64,000 bases of DNA from a virus, in the IMG/VR virus record IMGVR_UViG_3300025418_001265, positions 1-64,000 of that record. One strand, written 5' to 3'. A program made the position numbers and the translations under genes. A model generated the notes under the pieces. The model was given only the letters and a program-made list of their open reading frames with translations. It was not told where the DNA came from and made no database searches. How positions within the stretch are numbered: position 1 is the stretch's first letter; the number at the start of each line of letters is the position of its first letter. Of this stretch, positions 1-11,067 are shown in pieces.

Positions 1-1053
1 ATCCTAAATGGTTTATTAATCACAGCATTCTTATGTGTACCTTATTTTATTGGATTACGCTTATTTGCTAATTACGGATATCTTACGGATTATACCTGGC
101 CTACTTTAGCGGTATTGTTACCCTGGGTAGGAGCTTTGTTCTTTAGATTTGTAATGGAATTTAAGTTAAAGCAGCAAATCAAGAAGCAATTTGGAACGTA
201 CTTAAGTGCAGCTTTAGTAGAAAAATTACAAAAGAACCCAGGACTGTTAAAGCTTGGTGGAGATGAAAGAGAGTTATCTATTATGTTTACTGATGTAAGA
301 GGCTTCACAACTATATCAGAGCATTATGGTAAAGACGTACAAGGTCTGACAATGATAATGAATCGTTATATGACTGCTATGACCCAAGCCATATTAGATA
401 ACGACGGAACCCTCGACAAATATATTGGTGATGCGCAAATGGCTTTCTGGAATGCTCCTTTAGATGATCCCGACCACGCTCGGAATGCTGTAAAAACAGC
501 TATGCAAATGCTAAAGAGACTTGATACATTTAATGAAGAAATAGCTAAAGAAGGTATACCAGCATTTGGTATGGGCTTAGGTATTAATACAGCTTCGGTA
601 GTAGTGGGTAATATGGGTAGCACTCAGCGATTTGATTACACTTGCTTAGGTGATGGTGTTAACCTAGCTTCTCGTTTAGAAGGACAATCTAAACCTTACG
701 GAGTACGTATTATTATTGGACCTTTAACTAAGAAGTATATTGAAATGTCTTATCAATGCTTTGAACTAGATTGTATTGCAGTTAAAGGTAAAAAAGAAGG
801 TGTAAAGATATACACAGTGCTTGAAAACAAGCTAAGAGAAAACGGCTTAGAAGTTATAAGAATGCACGAAGCGTTTCTTATAAACTACAGAAAACAAAAC
901 TGGGAAGAAGCAAAACTTTTAATAAACGCTTTAAAGAAATATAACCCTGAACTTAAAAAGTATTACGAAGCAATGGAAGAGAGAATAAAAGAGCTCCAAG
1001 GAGCTAACCTTGGAGCTGATTGGGACGGAGTTTATAGAGCTACGTCGAAATAA
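1..1053 (+). CDS. CHASE2-type class III adenylate cyclase (5' end outside window)
   Basis: Makes cAMP from ATP at the inner membrane, judging by family. The frame is open from base 1 and the catalytic domain is complete, so the start lies upstream. Codons 1-58 encode two hydrophobic segments and the short linker seen at the end of CHASE2-cyclase proteins. The cyclase core follows: first metal Asp in FTDVRGF (about 286-306), the adenine-binding Lys in TLDKYIGD with the second metal Asp (about 409-432), and DYTCLGD then VNLASRLE (about 634-681), which carries the transition-state Asn and Arg. All catalytic residues are present and the Lys favours ATP over GTP. A helical tail follows. It faces the phage fibre genes convergently with a one-base gap. 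The upstream sensor domain is inferred, not seen. A phage-borne cyclase of this class is unusual. Confidence 0.9.
   Translation: MLNGLLITAFLCVPYFIGLRLFANYGYLTDYTWPTLAVLLPWVGALFFRFVMEFKLKQQIKKQFGTYLSAALVEKLQKNPGLLKLGGDERELSIMFTDVRGFTTISEHYGKDVQGLTMIMNRYMTAMTQAILDNDGTLDKYIGDAQMAFWNAPLDDPDHARNAVKTAMQMLKRLDTFNEEIAKEGIPAFGMGLGINTASVVVGNMGSTQRFDYTCLGDGVNLASRLEGQSKPYGVRIIIGPLTKKYIEMSYQCFELDCIAVKGKKEGVKIYTVLENKLRENGLEVIRMHEAFLINYRKQNWEEAKLLINALKKYNPELKKYYEAMEERIKELQGANLGADWDGVYRATSK
992..1017. other. Perfect 10-bp inverted repeat at 3' end of cyclase gene
   Basis: AGCTCCAAGG, a six-base loop AGCTAA, and CCTTGGAGCT form a perfect hairpin inside the last codons of the cyclase gene. No T-run follows on either strand, so it is not a classical terminator. 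It sits at a convergent gene junction with only one spare base and may pause transcription or protect mRNA ends. Confidence 0.6.
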
Positions 1054-1054
1054 C

Positions 1055-1753
1055 TTAGTAACCTAAAAGGTACTTGCGGCGCTTTGTGGGGCCTTCTACT
1101 TTATAACCTACTGGTGTTAAAGCAACAGCCTGTGCACCACCACCACGGCTACCTGTAGCAGGTACTGTAAATTCAAAGCAAGTATAATCGTGCTTTTGTA
1201 AATACATTTTGTGAGCTACTGGAACTGAGAATGTTACTGTTGCAGTACCTGGGTTAGCATAACCTGAACCCGTGTTAGTGATCTGTACACCAATAATGTT
1301 ACCATTACCCAAAATAGGTACACCAGTTGTAACATTTGAGCCAGAATCTGGAGCTGAGAATGTACAAGTTACTGCGCCATCATTGCCTGGACCCCAATAA
1401 CCTAAGCCACCATTTGTTATTACTACACCGCTAATGCTTTGTGTGTAGGTACCGCCAGCTAGATATGATACTGTACCTGTTGCACGAATGCATTGATAAG
1501 CACCGTCAATATAAATAGTACCTGTTCCAGAAGATTGACTCTCTACACCGCTAATATTAGCTGTATTCGTGTATGTTAACGCGAAATTAGCTTGAGCACT
1601 ACCTGTGCCGGACAGACTATTTGCGTAGCTAGGTATTACGTTAAATAATATAGCAGCTCTAGGATCGCTGATATTACAATCAACACCTTGATAGGTGGAT
1701 GGATTGTTACCAATTTGGTTTTGTGTAACTTGAGAATTAAAATAAGTAGCCAT
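1055..1753 (-). CDS. Putative virion surface protein with GGxGY repeats
   Basis: I do not recognise a named family. The 232-residue protein is rich in Gly, Thr, Ser and Asn and looks like beta-structured virion material. Two similar segments, ITNGGLGYWGP and ITNTGSGYANPG, followed by short beta-like stretches, resemble the GGxGY repeats of phage tail-fibre proteins. The last 35 residues (TPVGYKV then RRKYLLGY) match the C-terminus of the next gene upstream, so the two are partial paralogues sharing a C-terminal module. The gene is the last of the minus-strand series and meets the cyclase gene tail to tail. Role in the virion is inferred from composition and neighbours. Confidence 0.6.
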   Translation of the reverse strand: MATYFNSQVTQNQIGNNPSTYQGVDCNISDPRAAILFNVIPSYANSLSGTGSAQANFALTYTNTANISGVESQSSGTGTIYIDGAYQCIRATGTVSYLAGGTYTQSISGVVITNGGLGYWGPGNDGAVTCTFSAPDSGSNVTTGVPILGNGNIIGVQITNTGSGYANPGTATVTFSVPVAHKMYLQKHDYTCFEFTVPATGSRGGGAQAVALTPVGYKVEGPTKRRKYLLGY

Positions 1754-8943: not shown

Positions 8944-9264
8944 TTAACCTAGGTAATTTCCTGGCGGTAAAGATGAAATACCAGGCGCTGTAGTAACGAC
9001 CTGGGCATATGGTACATAACGTTGACCGTAACCACCTACCTGGTTACCAGCTGACAACGTTCCTGTTGTTAAAATTACTGATGCACTAACTCCAGCTACA
9101 ATCGTATAAACTGCATTAGGTGTACCACCTGTATTGCGAACAGTCATAGGGGTATAATCCCCTGCATTTAAATATGTGGCGTTAATATTACCACTACTAT
9201 CATTTATAAATGCTAAATAGGAACTGTTTAAATTATTTACAAAATTGACGTCTGGATTAGCCAT
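8944..9264 (-). CDS. Small putative virion protein
   Basis: A 106-residue, beta-rich, Asn/Gly/Thr-rich protein with no recognised domain. It begins MANPDVNFVNNLNSSYL and ends SSLPPGNYLG. Composition matches small head or tail decoration proteins more than enzymes. The leader carries an eight-base inverted repeat (9276-9300) with a late-type box in its loop. The function is unknown. Confidence 0.55.
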   Translation of the reverse strand: MANPDVNFVNNLNSSYLAFINDSSGNINATYLNAGDYTPMTVRNTGGTPNAVYTIVAGVSASVILTTGTLSAGNQVGGYGQRYVPYAQVVTTAPGISSLPPGNYLG

Positions 9265-9275
9265 ATAGGGTAGTA

Positions 9276-9300
9276 CAGTTAATACTTACATAATTAACTG
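9276..9300 (-). promoter_or_regulatory. 8-bp inverted repeat with a late-type box in its loop
   Basis: CAGTTAAT and ATTAACTG form a perfect stem around a nine-base loop. Minus-strand TGTAAGTA (9283-9290) spans one arm edge and the loop, 18 bases before the ATG at 9264. No T-run follows, so this looks like an operator over a promoter rather than a terminator. Confidence 0.4.
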
Positions 9301-9310
9301 GTAAACTACG

Positions 9311-9583
9311 TTAGCTTTGTTTATTATTTTGTAGCTTTTTACCCTCTGCAGAAATATATGTCTTTTTTACTTCTTCTATAGTGCCGTGCTTGGCAATAAG
9401 CTTACGAATATATGCTAAAGATGTATATTTGTTAGTTTTATTCGTTACAGGGCAAGTGAGATATAAAGGTAGAGGAAATCCGCGAGATTGTTCTTTTTGT
9501 GCCTTAGTAGCAGCTCTCTTAGCTGAAGGTGCGCGACGTTTTTTAACTGGTTGTACAGTGGATTGAGTATTAGTATCTTCCAT
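9311..9583 (-). CDS. Small basic hypothetical protein
   Basis: A 90-residue protein whose first 35 residues are polar and strongly basic (KKRRAPSAKRAATK), suited to binding nucleic acid. A compact C-terminal part includes TCPVTNKTNKYTSLAYI and a helix with IAKHGTIEEVKKTY. The pattern recalls small phage proteins with a mini-domain reading a peptide or DNA groove, but I cannot assign a family. It stands alone, with gaps of about 32-46 bases to its neighbours. A nucleic-acid-binding role is inferred only from charge. Confidence 0.55.
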   Translation of the reverse strand: MEDTNTQSTVQPVKKRRAPSAKRAATKAQKEQSRGFPLPLYLTCPVTNKTNKYTSLAYIRKLIAKHGTIEEVKKTYISAEGKKLQNNKQS

Positions 9584-9615
9584 AGTATAATGACTTAAGT
9601 TAAAGTATTAATAAA

Positions 9616-9915
9616 TCAACGGTGATTTAAACGGAACACTATATGTGCTCTTTGAGATTCGGAAGTAACTTCTGCAGCTGGATAATAACGATAAACTGCA
9701 TTTCTAATATTCTCTACAATCTTCATATTCTCTCCCCAAATTTCAAGCCCTTGACCTGGTCTTGGACGTGTTAATGCACCGTAATTGCACCAGAGTAATA
9801 AATCCGGACCGTCTTTTCTACTGAAAACCTTAATATTATTTAAAACTAACTCTTTAACTAAATCTGGATGTGGTTGATTTGGGTTGTGCTGTTGTTTTTG
9901 TTGTTTACGGTTCAT
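9616..9915 (-). CDS. Hypothetical 99-residue protein
   Basis: No family recognised. The N-terminus is Gln/Asn/His-rich and polar (MNRKQQKQQHNPNQPHPD) and the rest could form a small alpha/beta domain, with GPDLLLWCNYG, GQGLEIWGENMKIV and a final strand AHIVFRLNHR. No membrane segment. It lies 20 bases downstream of the GT2 gene and may be transcribed with it. Confidence 0.5.
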   Translation of the reverse strand: MNRKQQKQQHNPNQPHPDLVKELVLNNIKVFSRKDGPDLLLWCNYGALTRPRPGQGLEIWGENMKIVENIRNAVYRYYPAAEVTSESQRAHIVFRLNHR

Positions 9916-9935
9916 ACAAGCACTTACTTAATGTA

Positions 9936-10553
9936 TTAATCAAATCCAGCTGCTTTAAGCATTTTTAAACCTTTATTTTTATCAATTATATCCATTCTTA
10001 CTGATTGAGAATTATTAGGTCTATAATCATACCAATACAAATAACCATCTGCTAAAACTTCAGTTTTAATAAAAGGTTTTATGCCTTCTGAATAAAACTT
10101 ATCTTCCCCGTAATATAAGTCAGGAAAAGCACTCTTTAAAGCTATTTCTCTTTTGATAGGGTTAATATGGTTAATAGGTTTACATACAACACCATTCTTT
10201 AATTCACACCATTTCTTATGATTTGAAGAACATTCAAAATACTTAAACTCTTTTAAGTCAGTTGTTTGAAACCCTTTTAAACCCACTACATCAGGATTAC
10301 TCTGTAAAGCTTCTAATACATTACGTACATAATAACAACTGATCTTATCATCATCGTCTATATAAACAATATAATCACTAGTAGCTGCTTTTTTAAGTGC
10401 CTCTCTCTTTGCTCCAATTGTTATTTCTCCATTATCACAATAATTTAAGAACTGTACATCTGGAGTAATCTGCCTACTAAGCTTTTTGTACAAAGCATCA
10501 AAGAAATGCTTTCTTGAGTTAATAGTGCAAACCAATATAGAGAGCTTAGGCAT
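9936..10553 (-). CDS. Family 2 glycosyltransferase
   Basis: An inverting GT-A enzyme that would pass a sugar from a nucleotide donor to an acceptor in the cytosol. The 205-residue protein begins LSILVCTINSR, the usual GT2 first strand, and has the metal-binding run YIDDDDK (Asp66-Asp69). GLKGFQ and KREIALKSAFPDLYYGEDKFYSE follow, the latter carrying the ED pair that usually serves as catalytic base region. It is short, limited to the catalytic domain, with no membrane anchor. It overlaps the upstream phosphatase gene by a few bases, and with it, the SGNH esterase and the dehydrogenase fusion, forms the second half of the sugar cassette. Confidence 0.85.
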   Translation of the reverse strand: MPKLSILVCTINSRKHFFDALYKKLSRQITPDVQFLNYCDNGEITIGAKREALKKAATSDYIVYIDDDDKISCYYVRNVLEALQSNPDVVGLKGFQTTDLKEFKYFECSSNHKKWCELKNGVVCKPINHINPIKREIALKSAFPDLYYGEDKFYSEGIKPFIKTEVLADGYLYWYDYRPNNSQSVRMDIIDKNKGLKMLKAAGFD

Positions 10554-11067
10554 TTGATTTAATATCGTCTATAATATCGCTTATTAAACTATGTGTTATA
10601 CCTTCTTCTTTATTGCCGTAAAAAGCAGGTATCTGAATATAACCACTTCTACCGAATCTTTTAATAAAAGCAACTTTTTCGTAATTATCTCTAACGTCTA
10701 AATCGTCAATAAGAAAGTTTTTACCTTGCGATATATTTTTTGGTATTTTGTACTTTTGAAAATTCCTATCAAATATTTTATCTTCATCAAACCCAAAGTT
10801 AAAAGCCTTGTTCATTGCTATAGCATAGTCTTTAGTAGCTCTTGTAAGCATATAAACCTTACCAAAGTCTCTTAAAGCAAATAACAAGTAGTTAGCACCA
10901 GGCCTTAATACTGTTACGTATTGTTCTTTCTTGCTTAAAGCAACAGTTACAGGTGTATCGCAAAGATTAGATTCATCACCAAGATCTCCTGCGATGGTTT
11001 TCATACCAAGAGTATGAATTAGAGTTTCGTCTAAATCGACGAATATGTTTATTGTTTCAGAGGGCAT
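10546..11067 (-). CDS. HAD-family phosphatase, FCP1/NLI-like
   Basis: A phosphatase of the haloacid dehalogenase fold with the nucleophile motif VDLDETL (Asp11 and Asp13 counting from the ATG at 11067), the same DxDxT form used by FCP1-type phosphatases. LRPGANYLL matches the RPG signature after the insertion, LTRATKDYA carries the motif II Thr and FLIDDLDVRD the acidic motif. A TTG start at 11073 is possible but ATG at 11067 is more likely. It may dephosphorylate a sugar phosphate in the cassette or a protein; the sequence does not decide. Confidence 0.8.
   Translation of the reverse strand: MPSETINIFVDLDETLIHTLGMKTIAGDLGDESNLCDTPVTVALSKKEQYVTVLRPGANYLLFALRDFGKVYMLTRATKDYAIAMNKAFNFGFDEDKIFDRNFQKYKIPKNISQGKNFLIDDLDVRDNYEKVAFIKRFGRSGYIQIPAFYGNKEEGITHSLISDIIDDIKSNA

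Follow-up and report, generated by a model that had tools for sequence, protein, structure and literature searches.

The first ORF of the viral DNA analyzed here probably codes for the output portion of a transmembrane receptor-cyclase carried by a phage. The receptor would take part in FecR/curlin-linked cAMP signalling, and catalytic cassettes are exchanged within its family. The DNA, hereafter called the window, is a stretch of 64,000 nucleotides (G000:C1:1-64000) from the very start of a viral record 96,979 bases long. Because the window starts at the contig edge, the ORF is open at its 5′ end.

The Cyclase Gene in the Window

The ORF matches profile PF00211 (E 8e-20; 71.6 bits, cut-off 21.9) and, at a best E of 4e-31, class III cyclases of solved structure. 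Both metal-binding Asp residues, the Lys/Thr pair, and the transition-state Asn and Arg align with those of Spirulina CyaC (PDB 1wc1); that is, the active site is intact, as the sequence-only reading had held. A Lys/Thr pair is the signature of class IIIb adenylate cyclases. These residues suggest that the substrate is ATP rather than a pyrimidine nucleotide. In nucleotide comparisons, dN/dS is ~0.09–0.10 against the two nearest collinear relatives and 0.05 against a third, more diverged one; therefore, the window gene is under purifying selection. The features are collected in Table 1, in which the transmembrane (TM) helices were read from residues 338–357 and 367–390 of the homologue L003, a window residue number being the L003 number minus 334.

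Table 1. Features of the cyclase gene and its neighbors, in window coordinates except where a locus is named.
Feature	Position	Strand	Basis or remark
CHASE2-type class IIIb adenylate cyclase gene, 3′ half, 350 codons	1..1053	+	cut by contig edge
Last two predicted TM helices	10..168 (~10-69, 97-168)	+	hydropathy of the L003 homologue
Conserved linker QIKKQFGTYL, last TM helix to cyclase	175..204	+	L003 residue 393; presumed sensor/catalytic exchange boundary
Class III cyclase catalytic domain	271..819	+	PF00211 and solved-cyclase matches
Metal-binding Asp98	292..294	+	alignment with Spirulina CyaC, PDB 1wc1
Purine-selecting Lys140	418..420	+	alignment with Spirulina CyaC, 1wc1
Metal-binding Asp144	430..432	+	alignment with Spirulina CyaC, 1wc1
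Thr214, class IIIb partner of Lys	640..642	+	aligns with Thr of CyaC, PDB 1wc1
Transition-state Asn221 and Arg225	661..675 (661-663, 673-675)	+	CyaC 1wc1 alignment, family motif tally
C-terminal helical tail ending DWDGVYRATSK	820..1050	+	kept in nearly all phage homologues
First downstream gene, convergent; phage structural-like, weak head-closure match	1055..1753	-	same position in L003
Free-standing tail homologue, five examples	L254:2395-2766, L233:2174-2581, L249:2681-3055, L267:1755-2162, L290:2100-2462		upstream of csgF

The Missing Sensor Half

Relatives 91–93% identical to the window ORF are 684 residues long, with CHASE2 at residues 16–324 (PF05226, E 4e-41) and the cyclase at residues 425–607. 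Their hydropathy profiles show a single TM helix at the N-terminus and several TM segments grouped at residues 308–390, and the full-length order is as follows: one TM helix, a periplasmic CHASE2, three TM helices, and a cytoplasmic class IIIb cyclase. The window begins at residue 335, past CHASE2, and no CHASE2 sequence is present in its 64,000 nucleotides; the domain, found between TM1 and TM2–4 in these L002-like relatives, would fall beyond the contig edge. The CHASE2-type layout assigned by the sequence-only reading was thus, for the window, a correct guess and not an observation.

The phage cyclases form one clade (SH-aLRT 100) that includes the window's 91–93% relatives, and at least 595 stretches in one viral collection match the gene family. 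Phage genes flank the cyclase on both sides in the relatives, and the gene is indeed phage-borne. A chimeric assembly or a bacterial flank was rejected, as identical junctions occur in independent metagenomes and in isolates.

Several independent contigs (L004, L006, L007, L013, L018, and L048) also end close to the sensor/catalytic junction, no more than ~75 bases from where the window begins. This shared end is plausibly an assembly break from co-occurring strains that carry one catalytic domain on different sensors. L081 has its cyclase gene in two pieces, a CHASE2-region ORF (8982-9989) and a TM-cyclase ORF (9911-11005) in overlapping frames, the result of either a natural split or a frameshift.

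Two Catalytic Cassettes and Domain Swapping

The six-site catalytic motif is DKDTNR in 67 of the 69 full-length homologues that make up the sample around the window. When full-length homologues were sampled through FecR (n = 45), 27 had DKDTNR and 17 had DKDDSR, a type in which Ser takes the place of the transition-state Asn and to which the Melnitz isolate belongs. Loss of catalytic residues in related genomes, raised earlier as a point against the enzyme, does occur in the form of this Asn-to-Ser variant, which 18 of the 114 phage sequences carry; the window's clade is free of it. Because the Ser-type cassette could have low activity or none, cAMP output cannot be universal.

In a quick tree of the cyclase domain, the Ser-type cyclases are a single clade (SH-aLRT 99). 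On the tree of CHASE2 plus the TM segments, the Ser type needs eight changes, at least six of them forced by supported branches, and sensor trees on which one change would suffice make up 0% of 200 bootstrap trees. It follows that catalytic domains have been swapped between sensors. Individual pairs display the swaps directly: sensor and cyclase identities are, respectively, 81% and 43% for L287 with L263, 68% and 95% for L287 with L223, and 37% and 80% for Melnitz with L225. In the swapped pairs, identity falls sharply at the QIKKQFGTYL linker. Among 40 N-type proteins with sensors less than 45% identical to that of L003, the median cyclase identity is 79%; the Ser/Asn incongruence is the stronger evidence for swapping, since faster evolution of the sensor may add to the N-type contrast. 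The swaps are unlikely to be chimeric assemblies because separate metagenomes and the Melnitz isolate show identical junctions. Since the same sensor type is joined to either catalytic cassette, we infer from these sequence comparisons that phages exchange the receptor's output through recombination immediately after the final TM helix.

The FecR/Curli Operon

In relatives sampled through the cyclase, the cyclase is the last gene of a csgF-csgG-curlin repeat-FecR-cyclase operon. Eighty loci sampled through FecR, a set that overlaps the cyclase-sampled set in a few contigs, contain csgG in 79, csgF in 77, curlin in 80, and the cyclase in 59, counts limited by the many loci that end at contig ends. 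For the 58 FecR/curli operons with enough downstream sequence, the cyclase is on the same strand within 5 kb in 37; some operons have it on the other strand. In L002, L003, and most relatives, csgF, csgG, curlin repeat, and FecR genes adjoin the cyclase; the window starts downstream of where that region would lie. With the upstream half missing, we infer the window's own operon and its cNMP-binding partner from the relatives.

Curli-fibre/FecR operons are already on record from hundreds of aquatic phages. The arrangement is like that of the type VIII secretion (curli) module described for pelagiphages in 2022, which includes an adenylate cyclase (AC) in the order csgF-csgG-curlin-FecR-(curlin)-AC and shares the phage clade and the FecR partner (PMC9599517). 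Wittmers and colleagues reported FecR, a histidine kinase, and an adenylate cyclase alongside viral curli genes and gave their origin as alphaproteobacterial (PMC9599517). The HTVC008M and Melnitz records annotate this gene as an adenylate/guanylate cyclase. A phage adenylate cyclase is therefore not new, and the earlier statement that no phage enzyme with a CHASE2-like layout was known has to be withdrawn: Melnitz (MZ577098) gene 104 and HTVC008M AGE60353 are homologues with both the CHASE2 region and the cyclase, and they end the same operon. They are only 40–42% identical to L003, and they differ from the window gene in that Melnitz has the Ser-type cassette, whereas in HTVC008M the Thr position is occupied by Ser and the C-terminal tail is missing.

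The CHASE2 layout, the two cassettes, the swapping, and the cNMP-binding partner are not described in the 2022 account, and the word CHASE2 is absent from that paper and from the Melnitz paper. The Melnitz and pelagimyophage papers both discuss curli genes without mention of the cyclase, and a literature search for phrases denoting a phage-encoded adenylate cyclase found nothing. Judged against the open-access literature, domain swapping and the cNMP-binding partner appear new. So does the finding that, in alphaproteobacterial relatives, the cyclase is accompanied by FecR adhesins, by type I secretion, and in some cases by cNMP-binding exporters.

Two further observations concern the operon. 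In L252, L257, L258, and L296, the FecR-curli operon and the cyclase are carried by viral contigs 138 to 364 kb long, the largest in the size range of jumbo phages, with the cyclase opposite in strand in some. In 8 of the 80 FecR-sampled loci, a free-standing homologue, ~120–135 residues long, of the end of the cyclase domain plus the C-terminal tail is encoded upstream of csgF.

The cNMP-Binding Protein

In L003 and L002, a gene divergent from csgF encodes a protein of 213–219 residues that matches PF00027 (E ~5e-21). Its phosphate-binding cassette, GEGAL.SGAPRNAT, is invariant, and its C-terminal segment is hydrophobic; no DNA-binding domain or HTH was found in either protein. The gene is present on seven contigs, adjoining csgF in L003, L002, L096, L100, and L056 and lying away from the operon in L097 and L098. 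It was not found in the 2.4 kb before csgF in L024, which is 82% identical to the window, and 9 of the 12 records searched besides the window have no phage-encoded cNMP-binding protein. A structure prediction was set aside (mean pLDDT 59). This membrane protein is likely the cAMP receptor in the window's closest relatives.

Relatives in Bacteria

Among cellular proteins, the closest homologues are CHASE2 cyclases of Alphaproteobacteria, 33–37% identical, full-length, and collinear. Those of Bradyrhizobium, Afipia, and marine SAGs resemble the phage proteins in having a FecR partner and a C-terminal end like WDGVYVATSK, shared by bacterial homologues of the window cyclase. They differ in the exporter, which is type I secretion rather than curli, and in the purine pair, where 74 of 80 have Ser for Thr. 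A FecR-domain protein is encoded within 10 kb of the cyclase in 35 of 80 alphaproteobacterial loci, often immediately upstream, and HlyD is nearby in 26 of 80. Ten FecR-linked genomes of 3.6–9.4 Mb carry 2–11 FecR genes each, so by our estimate adjacency by chance would be expected in only a few per cent. In five marine loci (L117:3594-21257, L127, L134, L139, and L148), a protein that fuses a cNMP-binding domain to HlyD is encoded immediately ahead of the CHASE2 cyclase, and one or two more cNMP-binding proteins follow the cyclase; four of the five have a FecR-domain protein, which in L117, the one tested with Pfam, is an RTX protein. These loci possibly represent a cAMP-controlled adhesin export system.

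No csgG match was found in 32 of 35 alphaproteobacterial genomes tested. A bacterial curli operon with FecR and cyclase was considered as the direct source and rejected: in a small sample of five alphaproteobacterial curli loci, none had FecR and none had a real cyclase match. Since most of the genomes tested have no csgG match and the five curli loci lack FecR and a real cyclase, the phage module appears to be a composite in which curli export has been combined with a FecR-CHASE2-cyclase unit, in line with the report that bacterial curli operons do not include FecR or a cyclase (PMC9599517).

Proposed Function and Alternatives

The best reading of these gene associations is that cAMP signalling is tied to surface-fibre export. 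We propose that CHASE2 would read a periplasmic cue tied to the FecR/curlin fibre system, and that this signal would set the synthesis of cAMP from ATP inside the infected cell. Host CRP-type proteins would receive the cAMP in most phages; in the window's closest relatives, the phage cNMP-binding membrane protein beside the operon would do so. The conservation of DKDTNR in window-like homologues, together with the low dN/dS, points to an enzyme that is in use. In E. coli-type curli systems, cAMP acts upstream of CsgD. Curli-carrying phages lack CsgD (PMC9599517), and the cAMP-CsgD route is thus not directly applicable to them. Removal of CHASE2 from CyaD1 of S. meliloti results in constitutive cAMP production (PMC5498481). 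In Campylobacterota, a FecR-domain outer-membrane protein and a CHASE2 cyclase are likewise partners, in clusters with a phosphodiesterase and a TPR protein; these clusters differ from the phage operon in being bacterial, in having the phosphodiesterase, and in lacking curli (PMC9239204).

It is tempting to go further and propose, tentatively, that aquatic phages hold a complete modular cAMP circuit of their own, made of a CHASE2/FecR sensor of fibre state, a catalytic domain swapped at a fixed boundary between an active Asn and an altered Ser cassette, and the cNMP receptor of the window's clade. Virus-encoded second-messenger signalling is barely explored, and these natural chimeras allow direct comparison of a single sensor joined to two outputs and of a single output joined to many sensors. 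The FecR-CHASE2-cyclase-exporter logic common to phages and Alphaproteobacteria gives the unexplained phage curli operon a testable function; cAMP tied to fibre export would replace proposals of lysis timing or sibling capture.

The cyclase may raise host cAMP, as suggested in the sequence-only reading. It is unlikely, in our judgement, that it does only this, resetting catabolism through host CRP with the curli operon as a mechanistically unlinked neighbor. The intact class IIIb site and the nine records without a phage cNMP-binding protein would fit, but the cyclase is kept with FecR and curli in 59 of the 80 FecR-sampled loci, the bacterial homologues are likewise linked to FecR adhesins and exporters, and an unlinked metabolic switch needs no conserved periplasmic sensor. 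The Asn-to-Ser variant, conserved in 18 sequences including the Melnitz isolate, could mean that phages retain these proteins for the sensor, as scaffolds without catalytic activity; with all six catalytic residues retained in 67 of 69 window-like homologues and the cyclase domain the most conserved part of the protein, we give this very little weight.

Two other proposals draw on Pycsar (PycC with PycTM or PycTIR), which likewise combines a class III cyclase with a cNMP-binding protein, as in the close relatives. The present system differs in being encoded by phages and in its membrane CHASE2 receptor, its ATP-type residues, and its envelope operon, and the cNMP-binding protein with a hydrophobic tail, which adjoins the operon in five relatives, is absent in most. 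It seems improbable that the cyclase and a cNMP-gated membrane protein form a self-contained lethal or superinfection-exclusion circuit that shuts the cell to competing phages. The 213-residue protein beside csgF, with its hydrophobic C-terminal segment and no HTH, is what such a circuit would use; against it, the gene is on only seven contigs and in two of them away from the operon, the protein has only one convincing hydrophobic segment, and its structure model is poor. Least probable of all is an anti-defence device in which cAMP production or cNMP binding disturbs Pycsar-like immunity. The cyclase domain is matched by PADLOC profiles for PycC (E 6e-25), as is the cNMP-binding protein by those of PycTIR type (E 5e-11), but these matches reflect only the common class III cyclase and cNMP-binding folds, and a Pycsar assignment was rejected on that ground. 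Moreover, the Lys/Thr pair speaks for ATP, and the operon partners are envelope and fibre genes. The suggested role against cyclic-nucleotide defences is thus unsupported, the gene's partners being FecR and curli export.

Genome Surroundings

The cyclase had been described as lying next to T4-like virion genes. Such genes are present, with relatives of T4-like myophage sheath, tube, terminase, and baseplate identified (phrog_23, phrog_45, phrog_2, and phrog_150), but they are not adjacent: the terminase is at 59 kb, and the sheath and tail tube are just past the window's end, so that all three lie ~59–67 kb from the cyclase. What adjoins it downstream is a convergent island of glycan-modification and tail-fibre genes. 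The first 25 kb have no near-DNA match among named phages.

A search for the Gp23 major capsid protein (PF07068) gave no match in G000, the window's incomplete contig, or in G001, G002, and G421; the same search found it in Melnitz, HTVC008M, G003, and G004. The window's phage group thus has contractile-tail and T4-type terminase relatives without a detectable Gp23, even in the two closest relatives, which are 140-kb records, and in this it is unlike the phages of the pelagiphage curli module.

Cyclase matches labelled "Acinetobacter phage MD-2021a" were rejected as phage evidence. In that record (L084; CAKLQH020000011.1), bacterial housekeeping genes surround the cyclase, with mfd, iscS, and hscA on the contig, and it is probably a mislabelled bacterial contig. 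Within the window, very large collagen-like, repeat-rich tail-fibre genes, encoding up to 1769 residues, extend over positions 19243-57035 and take up much of the sequence.
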